From assembly GCF_011065895.1 (NCBI RefSeq), contig NZ_JAALCR010000001.1:124001-188000 (forward strand): a stretch of 64,000 bases of DNA. The letters are read 5' to 3'. Source of the DNA: Paludisphaera rhizosphaerae (GTDB lineage Bacteria; Planctomycetota; Planctomycetia; Isosphaerales; Isosphaeraceae). Of the stretch, positions 5,164 through 50,122 are shown one piece after another; positions within the stretch are counted from its first letter, which is position 1, and each line of letters starts with the position of its first letter. The position numbers and the translations under genes are program-made. The notes under the pieces are model-generated. The model saw only the letters and a list, made by a program, of their open reading frames with translations. It was not told the DNA's origin and did no database searches.

Positions 5164-8100
5164 CCACGCGACGAAGAGGCGGCGTGGCGATCGTCGGCCT
5201 CGGCGCGGCCTTTCCCGGGGCTTTGGATGCGGACGCCTTCTGGCGGCTCGTCTCCGAGGGCCGGGACGCCACGACCGAGGTCCCGCCGGGCCGTTGGCTG
5301 CTCGACCCCGATCAGGCGTTCGCTCCAGGCATCGCCCAGGCCGACCGTGTCTACACCACCCGCGGCGGCTTCCTCGCCGATGAGGCGCTGGAGGTCGACT
5401 GCACCGGCCTGGACGTGGACCTGGCGCATGTGGTGCGGCTCGACCCCTGCTTCCGCCTGGCTCTACGCGCCGCGGTCCAGGCGTGGCGGTCGGCGAGGAC
5501 CGAAGGGGTGGACCGTTCCCGCGTCGGCGTCGTCTTCGGCCACATCGTCCTGCCGACCGAGACGACCTCGGCCCTGACCCGCGCGACGATCGGCCGACAG
5601 GTCGAAGAGGCTCTTGGAGTCGCTCCGGGCGAGCCCAGCGGCTTCGAGCCGCAGAACGCCTTCCCGGCCGGAGCGCCGGCGCGGCTGATCTCGAAGGCTC
5701 TCGGGCTGGACGGCTCGTTCTACACGATCGACGCCGCCTGCGCCTCGTCGCTGTACGCCCTCAAACTGGCCTGCGATGAGCTGCTTACCGGCCGCGCCGA
5801 TGCGATGATCGCCGGCGGGGTCTCGCGGCCGGATGCTCTCTACACCCAGATGGGCTTCTCGCAGCTCCGAGCGCTCTCGCCACGCGGACGCGCCGCGCCG
5901 TTCGACGCCGAGGGCGACGGCCTGATCGTCGGCGAGGGCGCCGGCTTGTTCGTGCTCAAGCGGCTTGAAGACGCGATCGAACAGGGCGACACGATCCTGG
6001 GCGTGATCCGGGGCGTTGGCGTCTCCAACGACGTCCGCGGCGACCTGCTCGCCCCCAGCAGCGAGGGACAGTTGCGGGCCATGCGATCCGCCTACGACCA
6101 GGCCGGCTGGTCGCCGGCCGACGTCGATCTGATCGAGTGCCACGCGACGGGGACGCCCGTCGGAGACGCGGTCGAGTTCGAGAGCCTGCGAACCCTTTGG
6201 GCCGACCTGCCGGGGGCCGTCGAGCCCGGCCGCTGCACGCTGGGCTCGGTGAAGTCGAACGTCGGCCACGCACTGACGGCCGCCGGAGCGGCGGGCGTGC
6301 TCAAGGTGCTGCTTTCGTTCCAACACAAGACGCTGCCGCCGATCGCCAACCACCGTTCGCCGTCGGCGAAGGTCGCATTAGAGGGCTCGCCCTTTCGGAT
6401 CCTTCAGACGTCCGAACCCTGGCCGGCGACCCACGGCCGCCCCCGCCGCGCGGCGATCAGCGGCTTCGGCTTCGGCGGGATCAACGCCCACCTGTTGCTT
6501 GAGGAATGGACCGGCGGCGAAGCGAGCGCGGAGCCGGCGTCGGAGCCGTCCGGTGAGCGGATCGCGATCGTCGGGCTGGCGGCCCGCTGGGGAGGCGAGT
6601 CGGCGCGCGACGCATTCGCGCATCGGGTCTTAGGCGGCAGGCCCGGCATCGATCACGATGAGACGCTCTCCCGCCTTGAAGAGCTGCGGATCCGCCTGGG
6701 CCGATTCCGGATCCCCCCGTTTGAGTTGGAGGAGATGCTCCTCCAGCAGTCACTGACCCTCCAGGTCGCGGCCGACGCGATCGACGACGCGAAGTGGTCG
6801 CCCGACGTCGCTCTGCGTTCGAGCGTCCTCGTCGGCCTGAACCTCGACCTGAACACGACGAACTACCACCTACGCTGGTGGCTGGCGGAGCGTGCCCTGA
6901 CGTGGAACGTCGAGCAGGGCTGGGGGCTTTCCGAGGAAGAGTTGCAAGCCTGGATTGCTGAGGCGTGCGACGCGATCCAGCCGGCCCTGACCGCGAACCG
7001 GACGATGGGCTCCCTCGGCGGCTTGGTCGCCAGCCGGATCGCCCGCGAGTTCGGCATGGGCGGACCGAGCTTCAGCGTGTCGAGCGACGATGCGTCGGGC
7101 CTGGATGCGCTCAGCATCGCCGCCGACTGGCTGGAGCGCGACGAGATCGACTCCGCCGTCGTCGCGGCCGTCGACCTGACGAGCGACCCGCGGCTACGGC
7201 TTGCCGCCGAACGATTCGTGAAGTACTGGGACAACGACGTCGATGAAGCCGCCGATTGCGCCGTGGCCGTTGTCCTGAAACGCCACGCCGACGCCGTCCG
7301 CGACGGCGACCACGTTTACGCGATCATCGGCGCCGAAGCCAGGCCGGTGATCCAGGTCAACGAGCCGCGACGGCAGTTGGGCTGGACCGGCGCGGCCGAG
7401 GGGCTCGCCACGGCGGTCACGGCGGCCCTTGCGATCAATCGCCGCATCGTCCCGCCGGGATCGACCTGGAAGCCGCGAATGAGCCGAGGGGCCGTTTTGC
7501 CGAGCTACTGGCCTCGCGATCGAGGCTGCGGTCCCAGGTCGGCTCGGGTCGCCTGGAGTCGGGGGATCGAGCTGGAAGACGTCGAGATCGATCAGGGGGA
7601 TGAAGAGCAATTGAGGCCTCTCGGACCCGCCGCGATCGCCGTTTTCCCCGTTTACGGCGGCCTGGTGGGATTGGATCGATTGGCCGCGCTGATCGCCGAG
7701 TCGCCGGGCCGATCCATCGAACAGCTCGCCGCGATCTGGTGGGCCTCGATCCGAGGCGATGATCGCGGAGGCCCCTCCCTGACGTTCGTCGCCGAGGCTA
7801 AGCAAGCGCTGGCGGCGGCGGTCGCCGAGGTCCGCTCCAACCTCGCAGCCGGCGGCGCGGCGAGGCCCCGCGAGCGAGACGGCGTCGAGGTTTTCGAGCC
7901 GTTCGCACTGGCGGGAGACGAACCGCCGAAGGTGGCGTTCACATATCCCGGCCTCGGCGCGGCGCGTCACGAGATGGGCGCCGAGTTGTCGGCGCGGTTC
8001 CCGGAGTTGATGCGCGAGTTCGAGGCTCGCTATCAGACCATCGCCAGTCAGTTCGCGTTTGACTATTGGATGGACGCCGACAACAGCCCGTCCGCGCCGG

Positions 8101-11100
8101 ATCATCGGCCGGCGATCCTGGGGCAGATCTCGGTCGGCTCGCTGATGACGGCGCTCTTCCTGAAGCTGGGCGTCCAGCCCTCGGCGGCCCTGGGGTATAG
8201 CCTCGGCGAATCGGCCGCATTGGTGTCGCTGGGGGCCTGGGACGATCGGGATGAGATGACCCGGCGACTGGTCGAGTCTCCCCTCTTCTACGAAGAACTC
8301 GCCGGACCTTGCCTGGCCGCTCGCCGCGTCTGGGGGCTGGCCGACGATGAGTCCGTCGACTGGGTCGCGGCGCTCGTGCCGAGGTCGAAGGAGCAGGTCG
8401 AGGCCGCGATCGGCGACGAGGCTCGCGTTTACGTCCTCATTCGCAATGCGGCCGACGAGGTCGTGATCGGCGGTCGTCGCGACGCGGTCCATCGGGTGTT
8501 GGAGCGGCTGCAGTCCCCCTCGCTGCCGCTGCCCGCCGTTAGCACGGTCCACTGCCCGATCGGCAAGGACGTCGAGGACGCCTATCGGACGCTCCACGAA
8601 CTGAAGACGAACCACCTCACGGGCGTCACGTTCTACAGCGGCGCCTGGGGGACGGGCTACCTCCCCGACCACGGCACCGCCACGGCGGCGATCACCGCGC
8701 AGGCGTCGCGGATGATCGACTACCCGGCCGTCGTTGAGCGCGCTTACGCCGACGGCGTCCGCGTCTTCGTCGAGATGGGACCCGGCTCCGATTGCACGCG
8801 ACTCGTGCAGAAGATCCTTGGCGATCGCCCCCACGTCGCCGTCACGGCCGACGAGCCGGCCCTCGACACGATGCACGCCCTATTCCGGGCGATCGGCTCA
8901 CTGTTCGCGGCGGGCGTGCCTGTCGACCTGGACTTCCTGTATCCGGCCGAGTTGGCGACGGAACCGACACCGGAGGCCAACCTCCGCGAGATCGTCATCG
9001 AACGCCGCGATGCGCCGTTGCGGCTTCCGGTCGCCCCTCCCCGCCGCCTGTCTCCAGCCGTCGTACCCGAGCCCGCATTCCCCGCGCCCCTTCCGGACCC
9101 CTCGCCGATCATGACCCCGACGACTCCCGACGGCCTCCCCAACCTGACGCGCGGATTCCTCGAATCGCAGCAGGCCGCGGCCTCGGCCCACGAGGTTTTC
9201 CTGAGGCTGGCGCGGTCGTATTCCGAGACGATGGGCGGCGGAATCGCCGCGCTCCTTGCTGAGCCGTCCCACGTCTTCCCCCCTGGAGGGGGAAGACAGA
9301 CCGCGGAGCGGTCAGTTGAGGGGGACGACCGGCGCGGGGTTGATGGTCAGTCGTCGGACGCACGTCCGGAGCCGGTCGTCCCCCTCATCCGGCCCTTCGG
9401 GCCACCTTCCCCCACAAGGGGGGAAGGCCGTCAATTCGAGGTCGCTGCCGCGCTTGATCGCGACCAGTGCCTGGAATACGCGATTGGTTCGATCGGCTCG
9501 GTTCTCGGGTCGCGATACGCCGAGATCGATTCTTATCCCACCCGCGTTCGGCTGCCCGACGAGCCGTTGATGCTCGTCGATCGGATCATGAGCGTAGAGG
9601 GGACGCAATTTGAGCTGGGGCACGGCCGGGTCGTGACCGAGCACGACGTTCTTCACGACGGCTGGTATCTCGACGGCGGCCGGATCGCGGCCTGTGTGGC
9701 GATTGAGGCGGGGCAGGCGGACCTGTTCCTCTCGGGATGGCTGGGGATCGACTTCATTACGAAGGGGTTGGCCGTCTATCGGCTGCTCGACGCCACCGTG
9801 ACTTTCCACCGGCCGCTGCCCGAGCCGGGTGCGGTAATCAACTACGACATCAAGATCAGCGGCTTCTTCCGGCAAGGGGAGACTCACCTCTTCCGCTTCG
9901 AGTTCGTCGGGACGGTCGACGGCGAGCCGTTGTTGACGATGAAGGACGGCTGCGCGGGGTTCTTCTCGGCCGGGGAACTGGCCGCAGGCAAGGGCGTCGT
10001 CCCGAGGCCCCTCGACGCCGCCCCTCGACCCGGGAAGCGACCCGACGACTGGCGCGAACTGGCCCCTCCCACGCCCTGCAGGCTCGACCGGAACCAGGTC
10101 GACGCGCTCCGCGCCGGGGACCTCGCCGCTGCGTTCGGCTCGCCGTTCGATCGGCTTGACCTGCCCCGTCCCTTCCCACTGCCGGGCGGGTTGATGACGC
10201 TCGTCCATCGCGTGGAGACGCTCGACCCGAAGGGAGGTCGGTTCGGCCTGGGCCAGATCCGCGCCGAGGCCGACGTCCAGCCCGACGACTGGTTCATGGT
10301 CTGTCATTTCGTCGACGACCGGGTCATGCCGGGCACGCTCATGTACGAGTGCTGCCTGCACACCTTCCGCATCTTCCTGACGCGGCTCGGGTGGGTGGGC
10401 GCGGCGGATCGCGTCCGGTTCGAGCCCCTGCCGGGCGTCGCCAATCGCCTGCGATGTCGGGGGCAGGTGACCGAGTCGACCCGAGTCGTCACCTACGAGG
10501 TGACCGTCAAGGAACTCGGCTACGGCCCTGAGCCCTTCGCGATCGCCGACGCCCTGATGTACGCCGACGGCAAGCCGATCGTCGAGATCAGCGACATGGC
10601 GATCCGGCTGGCCGGGACCAGCCGCGAGGAGATCGAGGCCCTGTGGGATAAGGCACGGCCGGCGTCTTCCTCGTCCTCCTCGGCCCTCGTCTACGGCAAG
10701 GAACAGATCCTCGCGTTCGCCGAAGGGAAGCCGTCGGCCTGCTTCGGCGAACGCTACCGACCATTCGACGAAGGTCGGTTCATCGCCCGGCTTCCTCGGC
10801 CGCCGTATCAGTTCATGGATCGCGCGACGATCCTCGAAGGGCGTCCCTGGGAGCAGGCGGTTGGGACGACGGCCGAGGTCGTCTACGACGCTCCGCCGGT
10901 CGCCTGGTACTTCGAGGCCGACCGCCAGCCGAGGATGCCGTACGCGGTTCTCGTGGAAGCCGCGCTCCAGCCGTGCGGGTTCGTTTCGGCCTTCATGGGC
11001 TCGGCCCTCCTGAGCGACGAGCCGCTCAAGTTCCGGAACCTGGGTGGCCGGGCCGTCCAGCACCGAGTCATCGGCCCGGATTCCGGCCCGCTCACGACGA

Positions 11101-11765
11101 CGGCCCGGGTGACGAAGATCAACCGCTCGGCCGGCATGATCATCCAGAACTATGAGATGACGGTCCGCGACCGCGAGGGGATTGTCCTGGAAGGCGACAC
11201 CTACTTCGGATTCTTCCACCCCCAGGCGCTGGCGAATCAGGTCGGGATCCCGGACGTCTCCCCCTACGTTCTGACGGATGAGGAACGCGCGGCCTCTCGA
11301 TCGTTCCCCATTCCCGATCGAGCCCCCCTGCCCGACCGCCGCTGGCGGATGGTGGACCGAATTACGGCGCTGATCTCTCAAGGCGGCCCTGGCGGTTTGG
11401 GCTTCGTCGCGGGAGAGACCGACGTCGACCCCTCGGCCTGGTTCTTCCAGGCGCACTTTCTGGGCGACCCGGTGTGGCCGGGGTCATTGGGCTTGGAATC
11501 GCTGCTGCAACTCCTTAAAGTCTTTGCTGAAGCGAGATGGGGCCTCGACGAGCGCGCCGTGTTCGATTCGCCCGGAATCGGCGCGGAGCACGAATGGATT
11601 TATCGCGGCCAGATCGCCCCCGGCTCGCGCCTTGTCGCGACGCAGGCCTGGATCACCGGCGTGGACGACGCCCGACGGCGAGTCACGGCCGACGGCGTCC
11701 TGTCGGTCGACGGCAGGGTCATTTACCGGATGTCGGGTTATACGCTCGACGTCCGACCCGACTGA
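5160..11765 (+). CDS. pfaC: PfaC-like synthase subunit: KS-CLF-AT plus four FabA-type hot-dog dehydratase domains
   Basis: 2201-residue partner of the PfaA-like protein. The ATG at 5160 overlaps the upstream stop; the frame is open further upstream but GVAIVGLGAAFPG lies just after this start, as expected for a ketosynthase N-terminus. Domains: ketosynthase (1-450; Cys194, His328, His370); a chain-length-factor-like second KS (about 465-830) in which the Cys is lost (SSDDASG); an acyltransferase (about 922-1250, GYSLGES with Ser1014) resembling stand-alone PfaB; a linker; then four hot-dog domains starting near 1467, 1690, 1880 and 2060. The second and fourth carry the HFxxDxVxPG motif (His1716, His2099); the first and third lack that His, as in paired PfaC dehydratases. 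PfaB and PfaC functions are thus fused. The linker contains an in-frame palindromic repeat (9273-9427). oleA starts 33 bases downstream. Confidence 0.9.
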   Translation: MTTRRRGGVAIVGLGAAFPGALDADAFWRLVSEGRDATTEVPPGRWLLDPDQAFAPGIAQADRVYTTRGGFLADEALEVDCTGLDVDLAHVVRLDPCFRLALRAAVQAWRSARTEGVDRSRVGVVFGHIVLPTETTSALTRATIGRQVEEALGVAPGEPSGFEPQNAFPAGAPARLISKALGLDGSFYTIDAACASSLYALKLACDELLTGRADAMIAGGVSRPDALYTQMGFSQLRALSPRGRAAPFDAEGDGLIVGEGAGLFVLKRLEDAIEQGDTILGVIRGVGVSNDVRGDLLAPSSEGQLRAMRSAYDQAGWSPADVDLIECHATGTPVGDAVEFESLRTLWADLPGAVEPGRCTLGSVKSNVGHALTAAGAAGVLKVLLSFQHKTLPPIANHRSPSAKVALEGSPFRILQTSEPWPATHGRPRRAAISGFGFGGINAHLLLEEWTGGEASAEPASEPSGERIAIVGLAARWGGESARDAFAHRVLGGRPGIDHDETLSRLEELRIRLGRFRIPPFELEEMLLQQSLTLQVAADAIDDAKWSPDVALRSSVLVGLNLDLNTTNYHLRWWLAERALTWNVEQGWGLSEEELQAWIAEACDAIQPALTANRTMGSLGGLVASRIAREFGMGGPSFSVSSDDASGLDALSIAADWLERDEIDSAVVAAVDLTSDPRLRLAAERFVKYWDNDVDEAADCAVAVVLKRHADAVRDGDHVYAIIGAEARPVIQVNEPRRQLGWTGAAEGLATAVTAALAINRRIVPPGSTWKPRMSRGAVLPSYWPRDRGCGPRSARVAWSRGIELEDVEIDQGDEEQLRPLGPAAIAVFPVYGGLVGLDRLAALIAESPGRSIEQLAAIWWASIRGDDRGGPSLTFVAEAKQALAAAVAEVRSNLAAGGAARPRERDGVEVFEPFALAGDEPPKVAFTYPGLGAARHEMGAELSARFPELMREFEARYQTIASQFAFDYWMDADNSPSAPDHRPAILGQISVGSLMTALFLKLGVQPSAALGYSLGESAALVSLGAWDDRDEMTRRLVESPLFYEELAGPCLAARRVWGLADDESVDWVAALVPRSKEQVEAAIGDEARVYVLIRNAADEVVIGGRRDAVHRVLERLQSPSLPLPAVSTVHCPIGKDVEDAYRTLHELKTNHLTGVTFYSGAWGTGYLPDHGTATAAITAQASRMIDYPAVVERAYADGVRVFVEMGPGSDCTRLVQKILGDRPHVAVTADEPALDTMHALFRAIGSLFAAGVPVDLDFLYPAELATEPTPEANLREIVIERRDAPLRLPVAPPRRLSPAVVPEPAFPAPLPDPSPIMTPTTPDGLPNLTRGFLESQQAAASAHEVFLRLARSYSETMGGGIAALLAEPSHVFPPGGGRQTAERSVEGDDRRGVDGQSSDARPEPVVPLIRPFGPPSPTRGEGRQFEVAAALDRDQCLEYAIGSIGSVLGSRYAEIDSYPTRVRLPDEPLMLVDRIMSVEGTQFELGHGRVVTEHDVLHDGWYLDGGRIAACVAIEAGQADLFLSGWLGIDFITKGLAVYRLLDATVTFHRPLPEPGAVINYDIKISGFFRQGETHLFRFEFVGTVDGEPLLTMKDGCAGFFSAGELAAGKGVVPRPLDAAPRPGKRPDDWRELAPPTPCRLDRNQVDALRAGDLAAAFGSPFDRLDLPRPFPLPGGLMTLVHRVETLDPKGGRFGLGQIRAEADVQPDDWFMVCHFVDDRVMPGTLMYECCLHTFRIFLTRLGWVGAADRVRFEPLPGVANRLRCRGQVTESTRVVTYEVTVKELGYGPEPFAIADALMYADGKPIVEISDMAIRLAGTSREEIEALWDKARPASSSSSSALVYGKEQILAFAEGKPSACFGERYRPFDEGRFIARLPRPPYQFMDRATILEGRPWEQAVGTTAEVVYDAPPVAWYFEADRQPRMPYAVLVEAALQPCGFVSAFMGSALLSDEPLKFRNLGGRAVQHRVIGPDSGPLTTTARVTKINRSAGMIIQNYEMTVRDREGIVLEGDTYFGFFHPQALANQVGIPDVSPYVLTDEERAASRSFPIPDRAPLPDRRWRMVDRITALISQGGPGGLGFVAGETDVDPSAWFFQAHFLGDPVWPGSLGLESLLQLLKVFAEARWGLDERAVFDSPGIGAEHEWIYRGQIAPGSRLVATQAWITGVDDARRRVTADGVLSVDGRVIYRMSGYTLDVRPD
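9273..9427. repeat. REP-like palindromic element inserted in frame inside the PfaC-like gene
   Basis: A dense cluster of inverted repeats: a hairpin with 10-base arms (9273-9297), a small ACCGC/GCGGT hairpin (about 9299-9312), a perfect 17-base inverted repeat (9317-9333 with 9371-9387) enclosing a CGGACG/CGTCCG hairpin (9355-9368), a GGCCC/GGGCC hairpin (9391-9403), and a CCTTCCCCC/GGGGGAAGG hairpin (9405-9427). The sequence around CCGGCCCTTCGGGCC resembles dispersed intergenic REP-type elements of many GC-rich bacteria. It sits in the coding frame between the AT and first DH domains and encodes a low-complexity stretch (VVPLIRPFGPPSPTRGEG) without a stop. Confidence 0.8.
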
Positions 11766-11798
11766 TCGCGGTCCTTCCCCCCAGGCGGTGACCTCCCG

Positions 11799-12860
11799 AT
11801 GGCATCGATGAAATACCAGAACGTCTACGTGGAGGCGTTCGGCTACGAAGTCGCCCCCGTGGTCGTCTCGTCGGCCGAGCTGGAGGAACGGCTCGCACCC
11901 GTTTACGAGAAGCTCTATCTGAACGTCGGTCAGCTTGAGGCCCTCACGGGGATCGTCGAGCGGCGGTGGTGGGAGGAAGGCCATCGCGTCTCCGACGGCG
12001 CGATCGTCGCGGCCTCGCGGGCGCTCGAGGCCGCGGACATGCCGGCCGACCGGATCGAGGCGGTCGTCTACGGCGGCGTCTGCCGCGAGAACTACGAGCC
12101 GGCCACCGCCTGCCGGGTCGCCGCCGAGCTTTCGGTGAGCCCGGGCGCGATCGTCCACGACGTTGGCAACGCCTGCCTCGGCGTGATCGACGGCATGATC
12201 GACGTCGCCAACAGGATCGAGCTGGGCCAGATCCGCGCGGGGCTCGTCGTGGCCTGCGAGACGGCCCGCGAGATCAACGAGGTCATGATCGCCCGGATGC
12301 TCCAGAATCCGACGATGGACTTCTTCAAGCAGGCTCTGGCCACACTGACCGGCGGCTCCGGGGCGGTGGCCGTGCTCCTGACGGACGCCTCGCTCTCGCG
12401 TTCCAAGCGCAGGCGGTTGCTGGGAGGCGCGATGAAGTCGGCGCCCCAGCATCACGAGCTTTGCCGATGGGGCGTCGAGGCGGCTGGGTCGGAGTTCCCG
12501 GGCCTGCTCCGCGCGTTCACCGCGACCGACTCGGCGGCCGTCCTGAGTCATGGCGTCGAGCTGGGGGTGAAGACCTGGCAGGCGTTCCTCGGCAGCCTGG
12601 GCTGGATCAAGGACCGGGTCGACCGGGTGATCTGCCACCAGGTGGGCGGCTCACATCGCGACGCCATCCTGCAGTCGATCGGCGTCCCCGTGGAGAAGGA
12701 CTTCTCGACGTTCGCCTACCTGGGGAACATGGGGACCGTGGCCCTGCCGCTGACCGCCGCCATCGCCGAGGACCGCGGCGTCATCAAGCCTGGCGACCGG
12801 ACGGCGTTCCTGGGGATCGGCAGCGGCCTGAACTGCCTGATGCTGGGGCTGGAGTGGTAA
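11799..12860 (+). CDS. oleA: OleA-type thiolase: head-to-head acyl-CoA condensing enzyme
   Basis: 353-residue FabH/thiolase-fold enzyme. OleA joins two fatty acyl-CoAs by non-decarboxylative Claisen condensation to a 2-alkyl-3-ketoacid. Seen here: the active Cys126 in GNACLGV, a His in the ICHQVGGSHRD block and an Asn in the GNMGTVALP block, the usual Cys-His-Asn triad. Length is normal for OleA. The ATG at 11799 starts 33 bases after the PfaC-like stop, and the stop overlaps the oleB start (TAATG). The assignment is strengthened by the complete oleBCD set downstream; without it, a generic KASIII-like enzyme would be the alternative. Confidence 0.9.
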   Translation: MASMKYQNVYVEAFGYEVAPVVVSSAELEERLAPVYEKLYLNVGQLEALTGIVERRWWEEGHRVSDGAIVAASRALEAADMPADRIEAVVYGGVCRENYEPATACRVAAELSVSPGAIVHDVGNACLGVIDGMIDVANRIELGQIRAGLVVACETAREINEVMIARMLQNPTMDFFKQALATLTGGSGAVAVLLTDASLSRSKRRRLLGGAMKSAPQHHELCRWGVEAAGSEFPGLLRAFTATDSAAVLSHGVELGVKTWQAFLGSLGWIKDRVDRVICHQVGGSHRDAILQSIGVPVEKDFSTFAYLGNMGTVALPLTAAIAEDRGVIKPGDRTAFLGIGSGLNCLMLGLEW

Positions 12861-13819
12861 TGGCGACGATGACGACCGCGACGGCCCCTTCCCTTCGCTC
12901 CAACAGCCCCGAACTCGCCGAGTTCCTCGCCGCCCATCCCGGCCGAGATTTCGTCCGCGATGGCCTGCGGCAGCACTATCTCGACGAGGGCGACGGCGCT
13001 CCCGTCGTCATGCTCCACGGTAATCCGACGTGGTCGTTCTTCTATCGCCGGCTTGTCGAGGTTGTCTCGCCGACGCGCCGGGCGATCGTCCCCGACCACA
13101 TCGGCTGCGGCCTCTCCGACAAGCCCGACGACTCCCGATACGCCTACACGTTGGAGAGCCGCGTCGACGACCTCGAACGCCTGCTCGACCACCTGGGCGT
13201 TGTGGAGGACATCTCGCTCGTCCTGCACGACTGGGGCGGGATGATCGGCTCGGCGTTCGCGGCGCGACACCCGGAGCGGATCGCGAAGATCGTCGTGATG
13301 AACACGGCCGGCTTCCACATGCCGAGCGACAAGACGTTTCCCTGGGCGCTCCACCTCTGCCGAGACACCCCGTTGGGGGCCCTCGCGGTGCGCGGACTCA
13401 ACGCCTTCGCCCGAGGAACGGCCTGGATCGGCTGCAAGAACGAACGCATGCCGCGCTCGCTGCGAGACGCCTACGCCGCCCCTTACGACGACTGGGCCAA
13501 CCGCATCGCCACTCTGCGGTTCGTCCAGGACATTCCGCTCAAGCCGGGAGATCGCGCCTACGACCTGGTCACCCAGACCCAGGACCGGCTGCCGCTGTTG
13601 GCGAACGTCCCCATGTTGATCGCCTGGGGGATGAAGGACTTCGTCTTCGACGAGCCTTTCCTCAAGGAGTGGGAGCGACGGTTCCCGGCTGCCGCCGTCC
13701 GACGGTATCCGAATGCCGGCCATTACGTCCTGGAGGACGAGGCCGTGACGCTGGTCCCGATGATCCGCGACTTCCTCGACGGAGCGACGGAGGGCCGGAC
13801 CGATGGCCGCTCGGGCTGA
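12860..13819 (+). CDS. oleB: OleB-type alpha/beta hydrolase (beta-lactone decarboxylase), haloalkane-dehalogenase fold
   Basis: 319 residues. OleB converts the cis-beta-lactone made by OleC to a cis-olefin and CO2. The frame is open well upstream inside oleA, but the ATG overlapping the oleA stop gives a normal N-terminus. Motifs: HGNPTWSFFYR oxyanion region, nucleophile elbow VLHDWGGMIG with Asp124 rather than Ser, and the catalytic His288 in NAGHYVLEDE. An Asp nucleophile with a Trp after it is the haloalkane-dehalogenase signature and is shared by OleB. The 3' end overlaps oleC by 17 bases. Taken alone it would be called a haloalkane dehalogenase; its place between oleA and oleC decides the call. 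Confidence 0.9.
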   Translation: MATMTTATAPSLRSNSPELAEFLAAHPGRDFVRDGLRQHYLDEGDGAPVVMLHGNPTWSFFYRRLVEVVSPTRRAIVPDHIGCGLSDKPDDSRYAYTLESRVDDLERLLDHLGVVEDISLVLHDWGGMIGSAFAARHPERIAKIVVMNTAGFHMPSDKTFPWALHLCRDTPLGALAVRGLNAFARGTAWIGCKNERMPRSLRDAYAAPYDDWANRIATLRFVQDIPLKPGDRAYDLVTQTQDRLPLLANVPMLIAWGMKDFVFDEPFLKEWERRFPAAAVRRYPNAGHYVLEDEAVTLVPMIRDFLDGATEGRTDGRSG

Positions 13820-15506
13820 GGCGGCCTCGGCCAACATCGCCGGGCGTCTGAGCGAGGTCGCCGAGCTTCGGCCCCATCAGGCCGCGGTGGTCGTCCCGCA
13901 GGGGCGTGGGGCGGGCGGGAAGATGCGATACGCGCACTTCACCTTCCGCCAACTCGATCGCGACAGCGACGCCGTCGCCGCCGGCCTGATCGCTGATCGC
14001 GTTGCGGTCGGCACTCGCGCCGCGGTGATGATCCCTCCCGGCCTCGATTTCTTCTCGCTGGTGTTCGGCCTGTTCAAAGCCGGAGTCGTTCCCGTTCTCA
14101 TCGACCCAGGGATGGGCGTGAAGAGCCTGGGCAAATGCCTGGACGAGGCCGAGCCCGAGCTGTTCATCGGGATCCTGAAGGCCGTCGTCGCCCGTCGCGT
14201 GCTGGGCTGGGGGAAGCGCTCGGTGCGCCGGGTCGTCCTGGCCGGCCGAGCTGGTCGATTGCCGACCCACCGGGGACGTTCTGTCGACGCTCTTCGTGCG
14301 AAGGGACGCCGCGCGATCGCCGAGGGGAAGATTCCGAGCCCCGTGATGCGGGGCGTCGGCGAGGGCGAACCGGCGGCGATTCTCTTCACCAGCGGCAGCA
14401 CGGGGATCCCCAAGGGGGCCGTCTACACGCACTCGATCTTCGAGGCCCAGATCGCCGCATTCCGCGAGCTGTACGACATCCAGCCCGGCGAGGTGGACCT
14501 CTGCACGTTCCCCCTCTTCGCGCTCTTCGCCCCCGCGCTCGCGATGACCTCCGTGGTCCCGAACATGGACCCGACGCGACCGGGCTCGGTCAATCCCGAA
14601 AGCCTCTTCGAGGCGATCGAGGACTTCGGGCCGACGAACCTGTTCGGCTCCCCCGCTCTGTTGAAGCGGGTCGGCCCGGCAGCGGCCGCGAAGGGGATGA
14701 AGCTGCCGACGCTGCGCAGAGTGGTCACGGCTGGAGCGCCGGCCAATCCGAAGGTGCTGGAGGTCTTCGCGGGCCTGCTCGAATCGCCGGCTCAGGTCTT
14801 TACGCCTTACGGCGCTACCGAGTCGCTCCCGGTCGCCTCGCTCGGCACCGACGAGATTCTCGGCGAGACGCGGGCCGAGACCGATCGCGGCCGCGGCGTC
14901 TGCGTCGGCCGGCCCTGCGCGGGGCTCGACGCCCGCGTCATCCGGATCAGCGACGACCCGATCCCAGCCTGGTCAGACGACCTGGAAGTTCCCCAGGGCG
15001 AAGTCGGGGAGATCGTCGTCTCCGGCCCGGTGGTCACTCGCGAGTATTTCGGGAGACCTGAGGCCACGGCGCTCGCCAAGATCGTCGATCACGCGCGGGG
15101 CGTCTTCTACCACCGCATGGGCGACCTGGGTTATCTCGACGATCGCGGACGGCTCTGGTTCTGCGGGCGGAAGTCGCACCGCGTCGTCCTGGCCGACGAG
15201 ACGCTTTACACGATCTGTGTAGAGCGGGTCTTCGACGTGCATCCCGACGTCGCCCGCACGGCCTTAGTTGGAGTGAAACGGCCGTCAGGCAAGGAAGCCG
15301 TCCTCTGCGTCGAGCTGGCTCGACCGCTGGGCCGCCGCGACCAGGCCCGCGTTCGTGAGGAACTCGCGGCCATCGGCGCGAAGTACGATCACACGCGGAA
15401 GGTCCGCACGATTCTGTTCCACCCGGCCTTCCCGGTGGACATCCGCCACAACTCCAAGATCTTCCGCGAGAAGCTGGCCGAGTGGGCCGCTGGGAAAACA
15501 CCATGA
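13803..15506 (+). CDS. oleC: OleC-type AMP-dependent ligase (beta-lactone synthetase)
   Basis: 567-residue member of the acyl-CoA synthetase/ANL superfamily. OleC activates the 2-alkyl-3-hydroxyacid from OleD with ATP and closes it to a beta-lactone. The phosphate-binding loop FTSGSTGIPKG lies near residue 195, the TPYGATESLP motif near 336-345, and a YLDDRGRLWFCGRKS adenylation motif near 445-460. The ATG at 13803 lies inside the oleB 3' end, and the stop overlaps the oleD start (ATGA), so translation of B, C and D is probably coupled. Other ANL enzymes (fatty acyl-CoA/AMP ligases) look similar; gene order supports OleC. Confidence 0.9.
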   Translation: MAARAEAASANIAGRLSEVAELRPHQAAVVVPQGRGAGGKMRYAHFTFRQLDRDSDAVAAGLIADRVAVGTRAAVMIPPGLDFFSLVFGLFKAGVVPVLIDPGMGVKSLGKCLDEAEPELFIGILKAVVARRVLGWGKRSVRRVVLAGRAGRLPTHRGRSVDALRAKGRRAIAEGKIPSPVMRGVGEGEPAAILFTSGSTGIPKGAVYTHSIFEAQIAAFRELYDIQPGEVDLCTFPLFALFAPALAMTSVVPNMDPTRPGSVNPESLFEAIEDFGPTNLFGSPALLKRVGPAAAAKGMKLPTLRRVVTAGAPANPKVLEVFAGLLESPAQVFTPYGATESLPVASLGTDEILGETRAETDRGRGVCVGRPCAGLDARVIRISDDPIPAWSDDLEVPQGEVGEIVVSGPVVTREYFGRPEATALAKIVDHARGVFYHRMGDLGYLDDRGRLWFCGRKSHRVVLADETLYTICVERVFDVHPDVARTALVGVKRPSGKEAVLCVELARPLGRRDQARVREELAAIGAKYDHTRKVRTILFHPAFPVDIRHNSKIFREKLAEWAAGKTP

Positions 15507-16522
15507 CGCTCGACCCTTCCCGACCTGTCCTGGTGACCGGCGGCGGCGGTTTCCTCGGCTCGGCGATCGTCGCCATGCTCCGCGAACGCGGGCTTCCCGT
15601 TCGCAGTCTCTCCCGCAATCGCTACGACCGGCTCGACGAACTTGGAGCTGAGCAGGTCCAGGGGGACGTCGCCGAGGCGGCCACGGTCGACCGCGCCGTC
15701 GAGGGCTGCCAGGCCGTCTTCCACGTCGCCGCCAAGGCGGGGCTCTGGGGCCCTCGCGAGGAATACTACCGGGCCAACGTCGTGGGCACGGAGAACGTCC
15801 TGGCGGCCTGCCGAAAGTCGGGCGTCCGGAAGCTGATCCACACCAGCTCTCCGAGCGTCGTCTTTCATGGGACCGACCTCGAAGGGGTCGACGAATCGGC
15901 TCCGTACGCCGATCATTACGAGGCGGCTTACCCGGAGACGAAGGCGATCTCGGAGCGGTCCGTCCTGAAGGCGAACGACGCGACGCTGGCGACGGTCGTC
16001 CTGCGTCCGCACCTGATCTGGGGGCCGGGCGACAACAACATTCTGCCGCGGATTTACGCTCGCGCCCGGGCCAATCGACTCTTCCGGATCGGTCGTCGCA
16101 ATCCACTGATCGACCTGACCTACATCGACAACGCCGCCGCCGCGCACCTGATGGCGGCGGACCGGCTCGACGTCGGAGCGACGGTCGCGGGCAAGGTTTA
16201 TTTCATCGCTCAGGGCGAGCCCGTTCCGGTCTGGGACATGGTCGACCGGTTCCTGGCGATCGCCCATTTGCCGCCTGTGAAGCGGACCGTCCCCAAGGCC
16301 GCGGCGGTTGCGATCGGTCGCGCCCTTGAGGCCGTCTATCGAACGTTCCGCCTTCCGGGCGAGCCGAGGATGACCCGGTTCCTGGCCCATGAGCTTTCCA
16401 CCGCCCACTGGTACAACCTCGACGCCGCCCGCCGCGACCTGGGATATACGCCGCACGTCGGCATCGAGGAAGGCCTGCGGCGGCTGGCCGCATCGCTAGA
16501 CGCCCCATCGCCGGCGTCTTGA
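15503..16522 (+). CDS. oleD: OleD-type NAD(P)H-dependent 2-alkyl-3-ketoacid reductase
   Basis: 339-residue extended short-chain dehydrogenase of the NAD-dependent epimerase/3-beta-HSD type. OleD reduces the 2-alkyl-3-ketoacid from OleA to the 3-hydroxyacid used by OleC. Seen: Rossmann motif TGGGGFLGS near residue 12 and the catalytic Tyr143-x3-Lys147 pair (YPETK). The ATG overlapping the oleC stop is preferred over a GTG seven codons upstream because ATGA coupling is used at the other junctions. It closes the ole run; a 70-base gap follows. No fused OleBC, as found in some actinobacteria, is present. Confidence 0.9.
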   Translation: MTLDPSRPVLVTGGGGFLGSAIVAMLRERGLPVRSLSRNRYDRLDELGAEQVQGDVAEAATVDRAVEGCQAVFHVAAKAGLWGPREEYYRANVVGTENVLAACRKSGVRKLIHTSSPSVVFHGTDLEGVDESAPYADHYEAAYPETKAISERSVLKANDATLATVVLRPHLIWGPGDNNILPRIYARARANRLFRIGRRNPLIDLTYIDNAAAAHLMAADRLDVGATVAGKVYFIAQGEPVPVWDMVDRFLAIAHLPPVKRTVPKAAAVAIGRALEAVYRTFRLPGEPRMTRFLAHELSTAHWYNLDAARRDLGYTPHVGIEEGLRRLAASLDAPSPAS

Positions 16523-16592: not shown

Positions 16593-17795
16593 ATGGAGCC
16601 CGCCGTCTACGCGATCGCTACGATGGACACCAAGGGTCGCGAGCTTCTGTTTCTCGCCGATCGCCTGCGGGAGGCCGGCGCGACCGTTCGAACGGTTGAC
16701 GTCGGTACGACGGGAGAGCCGCTGGCCCCAGCCGACGTTTCGCTCCGCGCATTCGCGGACGGGTCGCCCGTAGCCACCGAGCGCGGCGAAGCGATCTCGG
16801 CCGCCTCGAAGGCCCTCACTCGCTTCCTGCTCGCCGAACAGGCCGCCGGGGGCGTGGCCGGGGTGATCGGCATCGGCGGCAGCGGCGGCACGGCGCTGAT
16901 CACGCCGGCCATGCGGGCGCTGCCGATCGGCCTGCCGAAACTCATGGTGTCGACCGTCGCCAGCGGCGACGTCTCGGCCTACGTCGGCTGTTCGGACGTC
17001 TGCATGATGCATTCGGTCGTGGACGTCGCCGGCCTGAACGTGGTCTCGCGGACGATCCTCGCCAACGCGGCCCGCGCGATGGCCGGCATGGCGAGCGGCG
17101 GTCGGGCCGTCGAACCGGCGCGACCGGCTCTCGGCCTGACGATGTTCGGCCTGACCACGCCGTGTGTCGACGCGGCACGCCGAGCGTTGGAGGATCTCGG
17201 ATACGATCCCCTCGCCTTCCATGCAACGGGGGTCGGCGGCCGGGCGATGGAGAATCTCGTCCGCTCCGGGATGATCATCGGCGTCCTCGACGTGACCACA
17301 ACGGAGGTCGCTGACTTTTTCATGGGCGGGATCTTCCCGTGCTCCGAGGATCGATTCGAGGCTCAGATCGCCGCAGGCGTCCCCTGCGTCCTGAGCCTCG
17401 GCGCGCTTGACATGGTCAACTTCGGAGCGATCGACACGGTCCCGACGAAGTACAGGGACCGCAAGCTCCATCGCCACAACGACCAGATCACCCTGATGCG
17501 GACGACTCCCGAAGAGAACCGCCGCATGGGACGGTGGATCGGCGGGAAGCTGAATCGATGGCGGACGCCCGTCTCGCTGTTGATCCCCGAGGGGGGAGTC
17601 TCGGGCCTGGACTCACCCGGCGGAGCGTTCTTCGATCCCGAGGCCGACGCCGCCCTGTTCGACGCGATCGAGGAAACCGTCGAACGCACAACCGAGCGAA
17701 CGGTGCGGCGCTTCCCGTTGCACATCAACGACCCCGCTTTCGCGAAGGCGCTCGTCGACGAATTCCGGCGACTGGCGGGGCCGATCCCTGTTTGA
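16593..17795 (+). CDS. Tm-1-like ATP-binding domain protein (UPF0261 family)
   Basis: 400 residues. It begins [20 protein letters not shown], the typical start of UPF0261/Tm-1 N-terminal domains, and carries a Gly-rich [19 protein letters not shown] segment near 90-110 of the kind that binds nucleotide. This family matches the N-terminal domain of tomato Tm-1, which binds ATP and inhibits tobamovirus replication; the bacterial function is unknown. A GGAG ten bases before the ATG fits as ribosome binding site. The gene follows oleD by 70 bases and lies 22 bases before the next gene, so these two form a pair and may be read through from the pfa-ole run. Nothing links it clearly to hydrocarbon synthesis. 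Confidence 0.85.
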
Positions 17796-17817
17796 ACGAA
17801 CGAGAGATGGAGCATCG

Positions 17818-18672
17818 ATGATGGCCGAGTCCCGCGCGACGATCCTGGAACGGTTCCGTAAGAAGGTCGCCGCCGGCCTCCCGATCGTGGGGGGCGGCGC
17901 GGGGACAGGCCTCAGCGCCAAGTGCGAGGAAGCGGGTGGGATCGACCTGATCGTCATCTACAACTCGGGCCGGTTCCGCATGGCGGGACGAGGCTCGCTG
18001 GCGGGGCTCATGCCCTACGGCAACGCCAACGCCATCGTCAAGGAGATGGCCCACGAGGTTCTAACCGCCGTCAGCCGCACGCCGGTCATCGCCGGGGTCT
18101 GCGCCAGCGACCCATTTCTGCTGATGGATCACTTCCTGGGCGAGTTGAAGGCCCTGGGCTTCGCCGGCGTGCAGAACTTCCCGACCGTCGGCCTGATCGA
18201 TGGAACGTTCCGTGCGAATCTGGAGGAGACCGGCATGGGCTTCGGCCTCGAGGTCGAGTGCATCCGTCGCGCCAACGCTCTCGACTTGCTCACGACCCCC
18301 TACGCCTTCGATCCCGACCAGGCGCGGGACCTGACCGAAGCCGGCGCCGACGTGATCGTCGCCCACATGGGCCTGACGACCAAGGGAGCCATCGGCGCGA
18401 AGACCGCCAGGACCCTGGATGACTGCGTCGTGGAGGTCGCGGCGATCGTCGAGGCTGCCCGGGCGGTCCGCCCTGACGTCTTCGTCCTCTGCCACGGCGG
18501 GCCCATTGCCATGCCCGAGGACGCCCGCTATATCCTGGACCGGGTCGAGGGGCTCGACGGCTTCTACGGCGCCAGTTCGATGGAACGGCTGCCGACTGAA
18601 GAGGCCATTGCCCGCCAAACGCGAGACTTCATGAATCTCCGGCTGCGGCGGGAGCAGGCGCTCGAAAACTGA
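17818..18672 (+). CDS. Phosphoenolpyruvate hydrolase-like TIM-barrel protein (C-terminal half of Tm-1)
   Basis: 284 residues. It starts [24 protein letters not shown] and continues with [21 protein letters not shown], characteristic of the TIM-barrel family annotated as phosphoenolpyruvate hydrolase-like or signal-transduction TIM-barrel. In plants and fungi this domain is fused behind the UPF0261 domain. Here the two are separate genes 22 bases apart. Two ATGs are adjacent (17818 and 17821); either may serve. The enzymatic activity of this family is not firmly established, so only fold and pairing are claimed. Confidence 0.82.
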
Positions 18673-48148: not shown

Positions 48149-50122
48149 ATGCAAGCGGAAGCCTACCTTCGTGTTAAGAAACTCCTGGGAGCCGGCCGGT
48201 CGCCGATGACCGCCCGGCTCCTCGGCGCCTGCGAGGCTTTGCTGGTCCTCGCATTATTGATCGTGGCCGGCCTGTTCGCCGCCTTGATGGCGTCGCGGGG
48301 CGAGATCAGCATCGCCAAACCAGTCACCGAGTCGCTCCCCTCGTGGACGCTCAGCCGACAGGTCGGCGACTATGACGATTACATCGTCTACGGCGATTCC
48401 GGCCTGTTCCCGCTCATCGGAGCCAACCTGAACAGCAGCAACCCCATCCATCGGCTTGGGGCGCGGCTCCTCGAAGGCTTCACAAGAGTACTCCCGCCTC
48501 TGCGGAACAACCTCGGCGCACTGACGACGCTGCTGGCCGTCGGCCTGATCCTGATTCTCCTGCTGGCGCTGGTGGCGAAGGCCCGACGAGCCGTCGTCGC
48601 CACGACCGTGGCCGATCTGGCTGCGAACCTGAGGAACCAGATCCATCGCCAGATGTATCGACTCGGCCAGTCCTCTCTGCCCACCGAGGGCGTCGGCCCG
48701 GTCGTCAACATCTGGACTCGCGAGGTCAACGACGTCCGCGATGCGCTCGTCGCCGATTTCGACGTCGTCCCCGGGATGATCGTTCTGGGTGTAGGTCTGG
48801 CTCTGCTGGCGCTCTCGACCTCACCGACGCTCACGCTCTTCCTGGCGTCGCTCGCGCTGCTCGTCTATCTGATCTCTCGCGTCATGAACCGCGACGCCCG
48901 GACGAATTACGACGCGGCCCTGCGAGACTCCTCGGTGCAGCTCTGTTTGCTGCATGAGGATCTCGGGCTGCTGCGGACCGTCCGGACCTACGGCGTCGAG
49001 GATTACGACCGCAAGCGGTTCGACGAGCACCTGGAACGGTATCGAGACGCGGACGTGCGACGGATGCTCGCCCAGGGGAAGGTCTCCACGGGGGCCGCCC
49101 TGCTCTACGGAGCGGCGATCGCCACGGGGTTGGGACTGCTGGGTTACAACATCCTGGTGAAGGACCGGATCTCGATCGCCACCATGATCATCCTGGTTGC
49201 GACGCTCGCCGGCCTGGCCGTCCCGATCCTGCAATGGATTCGGATGCGGCAGACGATCCGCCACGCCAATCGTTCGGCCGGCGAGATCTTCGAGTTTCTG
49301 GCCCGCTCCCCGGAACTCCACCAGAACGTGGGCGCCGAGTTTTTGCCGCCGCTGCGACGCTCGATCGTCCTCGACGACGTCACCCTGGAGAGTCGTTCGG
49401 GACGGCTCTTGCTGGACAAGGTCTCGCTGGAGATCCCCGCCGTCGGTCGGACGGCGATCGTGGGCGTGGACGAGGACTCGAAGCTCGCCCTGGCCTGCTT
49501 GATCCCGCGTCTGATCGACCCTCAGGGGGGCAAGGTTCTGATCGACGGCCGCGACCTCCGCGACATGACGTTGGAATCGGTCCGCGCCCAGTCGGCGACC
49601 GTCCTGCAGGCCGATCTGGTCTTCACCGACACGATCATGGCGAACATCGGTCTGGGAGACTCGAGGAACACGCTTCAGCGCGTGATCGAGGCCGCCAAGA
49701 CTGCCCACGCCCACTTCTTCATCCAGGAGCTGCCGCACGGTTACGATACCGTCGTCGGTCCGCTGGGCCATTACCTCCGGCCCGACGAGCAGCTCCGGAT
49801 CGCTCTGGCCCGCGCGTACCTCCACGATCCGTCGATCCTGATCGTGGAGGAACTTCCCTCGCAGATCGACGACGAGGTGAAGCTGCTGCTCGACGACACG
49901 CTGGCTCGGCTCTCGGTCAACCGGACGGTCATCACGATCCCGCACCGGCTGTCGACCATTCGCTCCGCGGACAACATCATCCTGCTGCACAACGGTCGGG
50001 TGGAGGCGTTCGGTACTCCGTCGAAGCTGCAGGCCGAGAGCAAGCTCTTCCGCCACATCCTCTACACCGAGTTCAACGAGTACGCCACCGGCGAGATCGA
50101 AGCGGGTCGGGTCTCTGCCTGA
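48149..50122 (+). CDS. ABC exporter (TMD-NBD fusion) with eroded ATPase motifs
   Basis: 657 residues: an N-terminal extended membrane region (first segment near 25-48, a loop, another near 120-145), a type-IV exporter transmembrane domain, and a nucleotide-binding domain from about 400. The NBD deviates at every key motif: Walker A is GVDEDSKL (439-446; Gly to Ser and Ser/Thr to Leu), the signature LSGGEQ is LRPDEQ (543-548), Walker B ends IVEEL (Asp replaced by Glu567, catalytic Glu568 kept). The switch His599 remains (PHRLSTI). It may bind nucleotide poorly or act as one half of a heterodimer with a normal partner. GGGGAG precedes the ATG. It follows the ABC-2 permease by 152 bases. Confidence 0.85.
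   Translation: MQAEAYLRVKKLLGAGRSPMTARLLGACEALLVLALLIVAGLFAALMASRGEISIAKPVTESLPSWTLSRQVGDYDDYIVYGDSGLFPLIGANLNSSNPIHRLGARLLEGFTRVLPPLRNNLGALTTLLAVGLILILLLALVAKARRAVVATTVADLAANLRNQIHRQMYRLGQSSLPTEGVGPVVNIWTREVNDVRDALVADFDVVPGMIVLGVGLALLALSTSPTLTLFLASLALLVYLISRVMNRDARTNYDAALRDSSVQLCLLHEDLGLLRTVRTYGVEDYDRKRFDEHLERYRDADVRRMLAQGKVSTGAALLYGAAIATGLGLLGYNILVKDRISIATMIILVATLAGLAVPILQWIRMRQTIRHANRSAGEIFEFLARSPELHQNVGAEFLPPLRRSIVLDDVTLESRSGRLLLDKVSLEIPAVGRTAIVGVDEDSKLALACLIPRLIDPQGGKVLIDGRDLRDMTLESVRAQSATVLQADLVFTDTIMANIGLGDSRNTLQRVIEAAKTAHAHFFIQELPHGYDTVVGPLGHYLRPDEQLRIALARAYLHDPSILIVEELPSQIDDEVKLLLDDTLARLSVNRTVITIPHRLSTIRSADNIILLHNGRVEAFGTPSKLQAESKLFRHILYTEFNEYATGEIEAGRVSA

Follow-up and report, generated by a model that had tools for sequence, protein, structure and literature searches.

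An ABC exporter family with dismantled nucleotide-site motifs: a candidate pseudo-ATPase in a Paludisphaera genome

The window considered here is a 64,000-nucleotide stretch of the 8.05 Mb genome of Paludisphaera rhizosphaerae, which has Paludisphaera soli (79% identity) among its close relatives. An open reading frame on its forward strand (48149..50122) begins with ATG, contains zero internal stops and encodes a half-transporter of 657 amino acids. An exporter membrane domain, matched by PF00664 at residues 126-354 (48524..49210, +; 61.1 bits against a Pfam cut-off of 28), is followed in the same chain by a nucleotide-binding domain (NBD), matched by PF00005 at residues 422-568 (49412..49852, +; 36.2 bits against 25), and with this architecture the protein is a type IV (ABCB-like) ABC exporter in the structural sense. 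The membrane domain had been called intact in the first-pass annotation, and its score bears this out. NCBIfam matches include HepA (4.2e-69) and MsbA (2.9e-67), and the matches in the PDB include ABCB chains. Since the NBD lies above the PF00005 cut-off, a domain search alone still labels the protein as an ABC ATPase. This is a caution for annotation by domain match, as a protein that clears the Pfam ATPase threshold would be labelled ATP-binding.

An ABC-2 permease gene (PF12679; 47184..47996, +) ends 152 nt upstream of the exporter and is a recurrent neighbour, while an acylphosphatase gene (PF00708; 46759..47109, +) lies further upstream and is also frequent in this position, its cluster (c2) being present in 26 loci. 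On the strand opposite to the exporter, a subtilase gene (PF00082; 50998-52962, -) encodes a protein with a long Thr/Pro/Ser-rich tail, and a homologue (cluster c4) is located near the exporter in 19 loci.

The canonical Walker A, signature and Walker B motifs, together with the A-loop, are required of an ATP-hydrolysing ABC exporter, and they are absent here. Motif positions were assigned from an alignment that takes in canonical paralogues. In the window protein, Glu replaces Tyr at the A-loop position (residue 414; 49388..49390, +), the Walker A position reads GVDEDSKL (residues 439-446; 49463..49486, +), the signature position reads LRPDEQ (residues 543-548; 49775..49792, +), and Walker B ends in IVEEL (residues 565-569; 49841..49855, +), in which the Asp has become Glu 567 and the Glu at the catalytic position, 568, is retained. 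Gln 487 of the Q-loop (49607..49609, +) and His 599 of the H-loop (49943..49945, +) are retained as well. The first-pass annotation had described Walker A, the signature and Walker B as degenerate and the H-loop as intact; the alignment with canonical paralogues confirms the former, and the latter holds for the window protein, though only 57 of 76 relatives share this His. The loss of the A-loop and the retention of E568 are two points beyond that annotation.

The search for orthologues with the same substitutions, which had been proposed as a check, revealed that the losses are common to the orthologues: degenerate motifs are found in every listed orthologue of the window exporter, a set that was listed before any division by Walker A. 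Relatives from the bacterial family and class of the host were then scored, and their ORFs were sorted by Walker A: 76, among them the window protein, lack the consensus, and 25 have it. Because this split was made on Walker A, the absence of a canonical Walker A in the 76 is true by construction; that count is circular, and therefore independent support comes from the other motifs, from a motif-masked tree and from the orthologues listed before the split. The 76 relatives are non-independent (about 21 effective rows among 73), and three of them are contig-end fragments in which the motif region is still present. One ORF with no motif region (L048) and duplicate copies of included loci (L010-L015 and L091) were left out before counting. 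The controls number 25 in the Walker A-sorted motif scoring and 24 elsewhere, where the second ORF of L079 is omitted.

An aromatic residue at the A-loop occurs in 0 of the 76 relatives, as opposed to Tyr in all 24 controls. Acidic residues are present within Walker A in 75/76 relatives versus 0/24 controls, and within the signature in 71/76 versus 4/24. The Walker A Gly is found at position 4 in 0/76 and at position 6 in 1/76, Ser or Thr at position 8 in 2/76, and the Walker A Lys in 50/76, which corresponds to 0.25 of the protein family after weighting for similarity. The Walker B Asp persists in a single relative (1/76, versus 25/25 controls); Glu takes its place at position 567 in 73/76, and the Glu at the catalytic position is present in all 76. 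The Q-loop Gln is present in 52/76. One member (L065, with LSSGE) matches a loose signature pattern, and the signature consensus is present in all 25 canonical ORFs, together with the Walker B Asp and the catalytic Glu.

When positions conserved in the controls were compared with the degenerate family after similarity weighting (73 rows, equivalent to about 21 effective ones), most of the conserved positions lost by the family were found to fall in the A-loop, Walker A, signature and Walker B, and only a few (188, 192, 379, 578, 597 and 610) lie outside the nucleotide motifs. Other NBD positions are common to the family and the controls, for example S477, R479, N499, G531, G537, R555, E568 and R600, and four residues, E567, P569, D583 and R587, are newly conserved and specific to the family. 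The degenerate NBD is under purifying selection like that of a canonical paralogue: dN/dS is 0.09-0.28 in the window family and 0.08-0.32 in the paralogue from the same genomes (15 pairs each from six genomes of the genus, by the Nei-Gojobori method in our own script). At the level of the alignment, the losses in the A-loop, Walker A, signature and Walker B are family-wide, within a domain that is being maintained by selection.

A tree calculated with the motifs masked places 65 degenerate rows and 24 canonical rows on the two sides of one branch with an SH-aLRT of 100; it was made by a quick method with a midpoint root, long branches were flagged, and 12 near-copies and fragments were omitted. 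As the canonical set is small and was drawn from the same profile, this tree yields no sister group. The groups within its degenerate side mostly track the families of the genomes, which fits vertical descent.

These data bear on the suggestion that the gene is a pseudogene or a decaying duplicate, which the first-pass annotation had named, as pseudogene drift, among the outcomes that would refute its proposal. The degenerate motifs themselves agree with decay, as do four members in which degeneracy has gone even further than in the others (L088, L089, L097 and L104), but the frames are open across many independent genomes, the NBD dN/dS stays at 0.09-0.28 over all 15 pairs, new residues have become conserved in the family, and a single branch of the masked tree separates the members from the canonical rows. 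We consider this explanation highly improbable, and drift as such is ruled out by the common losses, the dN/dS values and the masked tree.

With the window protein as query, a match at E <= 1e-80 was obtained in 40 of the 45 genomes of the bacterial family, and two of the five remaining genomes, which were fetched (L088 and L089), both hold a still more degenerate exporter directly after an ABC-2 permease (L088:8128-10095, +; L089:5147-7069, -). The two genomes belong to a single genus; their exporter lacks both the signature and the H-loop His, and the Glu-Glu pair of Walker B is retained. A profile of the protein family at E <= 1e-135 matches at least 167 of the 248 genomes of the class, with one copy each, a lower bound given that this threshold misses true but diverged members. 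All 15 best matches fetched from outside the class carry canonical motifs; in this sample of 15, degenerate members are thus restricted to the class.

The ABC-2 permease is found immediately upstream of the exporter, on the same strand, in 62 of the 73 exporter loci for which 700 nt or more of upstream sequence is present, and is absent next door in the other 11. It is near-universal and single-copy in the class (240 of 248 genomes), its C-terminus is nearly invariant (FEDRDLA), and weaker relatives are spread through the phylum (at E <= 1e-25, 78 of 199 genomes, a count that takes in those of the class). The recurrent adjacency of the two genes suggests a shared role. Nevertheless, 15 of 18 further permease loci, from 20 regions fetched, have no exporter within the fetched stretch, and in one genome (G090) the permease and the exporter are about 4 Mb apart; they are thus separate in some lineages, and the link between them is not obligatory. 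Outside the class, the relatives of the permease often lie beside genes that were named by eye as ParA/ParB-like and metallophosphoesterase-like.

It had also been pointed out that this permease lacks an ATPase gene of its own nearby, which is true here and in nearly all relatives. In a pattern-based search, a canonical ABC ATPase ORF was detected in 1 of the 39 exporter loci that exceed 9 kb; none was detected in the 12 loci of relatives outside the class, several of which are cut by contig ends. A recurrent upstream ORF of the right size for a hidden ATPase (cluster c16) was rejected, because its sequence reads by eye as NAD kinase. Three other neighbouring clusters were likewise named by eye from their sequences, and we take them to be DXP synthase (c27), a CysQ/inositol-monophosphatase protein (c5) and an HD-domain protein (c29). 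In some relatives, homologues of a UPF0261 gene and a PEP_hydrolase (PF09370) gene are situated just downstream of the exporter (clusters c11 and c12), and in the window these two genes adjoin each other elsewhere (16593-18672, +). They are preceded by a PfaA/PfaB-like polyketide synthase gene followed directly by four genes resembling OleA, OleB, OleC and OleD (5082-16522, +); the OleC and OleD models give strong matches that are still under their cut-offs, and the names of the other two are presumed. OleA-OleD are involved in long-chain olefin synthesis.

The first-pass annotation had further proposed that the exporter may depend on an ATPase encoded elsewhere. As stated, this is not supported: the NBD is fused to the membrane domain, and Walker A, Walker B and the signature are degenerate in one chain, hence a separately encoded ATPase cannot simply power the exporter. 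According to PMC7756269, each site of an ABC dimer is formed by Walker A and Walker B from one NBD together with the signature from its partner. It follows that a homodimer of the window protein would have no intact site, and that both composite sites would be impaired even in a pairing with a canonical half, which weakens any simple rescue by an ATPase from elsewhere. A more specific proposal is that the protein forms the degenerate half of a heterodimeric exporter whose canonical partner is encoded at another locus, with ATP at a composite site driving transport. Heterodimeric exporters that have a degenerate site are common, according to PMC7756269, and a canonical partner is available in principle, since each of the 45 genomes of the bacterial family encodes 2-12 PF00664 proteins and all 45 have canonical exporters. 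On the other hand, the losses in this one chain reach both composite sites, no canonical exporter gene recurs alongside, and a canonical ATPase ORF is rare in the longer loci, as described above. In addition, the three other PF00664 proteins of the source genome are exporters canonical in every motif, and none of the three has a complementary degeneracy. We therefore regard a heterodimer of this kind as unlikely. A regulatory half-transporter and a substrate-binding scaffold had been offered in the first-pass annotation as candidate roles; the analysis pointed to neither a regulated partner nor a substrate.

Judging from the substitutions, a negative charge now occupies the phosphate-binding position in the family, and the acidic residues there would block ATP. 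We infer that the window protein neither productively binds nor hydrolyses ATP, and because a large bacterial group has preserved relatives that share these losses, it probably works without consuming ATP. The residues that have been kept weaken this interpretation to some extent: E568 in 76/76, His in 57, Gln in 52 and Lys in 50, and such retention would be odd if the site were without any role. The same four counts would be accommodated if the NBD bound a nucleotide or another anion without hydrolysing it, and served as a sensor gating the membrane domain, at least in those members that keep the Lys. However, the glycines of the phosphate loop are gone (0 and 1 of 76), Walker A is acidic in 75/76, A-loop aromatics are entirely missing, and the Lys falls to a quarter of the family when similarity is taken into account. 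A sensor of this sort seems to us doubtful. A structure prediction with seven sequences gave mean pLDDT values of 54.4 (whole chain) and 59.2 (NBD), too low to assess the pocket, and a Foldseek search with this low-confidence NBD model shows only that it resembles ABCB and MsbA NBDs.

Overall, we put at roughly 50% the probability that the product of this gene is an ancient pseudo-ATPase ABC exporter that does its work without itself hydrolysing ATP. The protein keeps the type IV membrane domain, the coupling regions and the NBD core, with the residues that hold ATP gone. It would most likely be a homodimer whose nucleotide-free NBDs clamp the membrane domain, either structurally or as a gate; the movement of substrate may be passive, driven by a gradient or controlled by a partner protein. 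A pseudo-ATPase exporter with its NBD retained as a mechanical part is the most economical reading. A broader version, plausible but held with less assurance, is that a class-wide exporter family abandoned ATP while keeping the whole NBD and its coupling to the membrane domain, that the NBD was rebuilt around the conserved EEP and D583/R587 into a nucleotide-free clamp, and that the protein is an ATP-independent transporter, channel or scramblase, possibly acting with the ABC-2 permease. ABC exporters are defined by their ATP-driven NBDs; if the pseudo-ATPase reading is true, this family separates the role of the NBD as an engine from its mechanical role, and offers natural material for testing whether cargo transport or gating by an exporter fold is possible in the absence of ATP.

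Among known systems, MsbA/HepA-like and other ABCB-type type IV exporters resemble the window protein in domain order, membrane domain and NBD core, and differ in that the window protein has lost the nucleotide motifs. The equivalog models agree with this distance: the protein scores 233.5 of 725 bits with HepA (NF045513) and 227.5 of 602 bits with MsbA (TIGR02203), both far under the curated cut-offs.

The SLiPT proteins (SbmA/BacA) have an exporter-type membrane fold that has ceased to be powered by ATP, as presented in PMC13316013, and SbmA is thus a precedent for an exporter fold without ATP, a condition that would apply to the window protein as well. In SLiPT, according to the same source, the NBD and the coupling helices were lost and a glutamate ladder was gained, whereas the window protein keeps both its NBD and its coupling regions. 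No acid is conserved in most members within the six putative transmembrane segments, which were assigned by eye; E is present at position 362 in 19 members, and E270, E284 and E389 lie outside the segments. An SbmA-like proton coupling was set aside on this ground.

Exporters that have a single degenerate site are well known, as PMC7756269 documents. In the open-licence PMC papers searched, no prior description of the degenerate exporter family was found, nor is any family described within that literature in which one chain has had its nucleotide site dismantled on both sides. Close parallels are TM287/288, TmrAB, TAP and Pdr5, in which, according to PMC7756269, conserved functional departures occur in Walker A, Walker B or the signature, as they do here. 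In those exporters the departures are shared between two NBDs and one site remains canonical; the window exporter has no such division, since its single chain has lost both sides of the site and keeps the Glu at the catalytic position.
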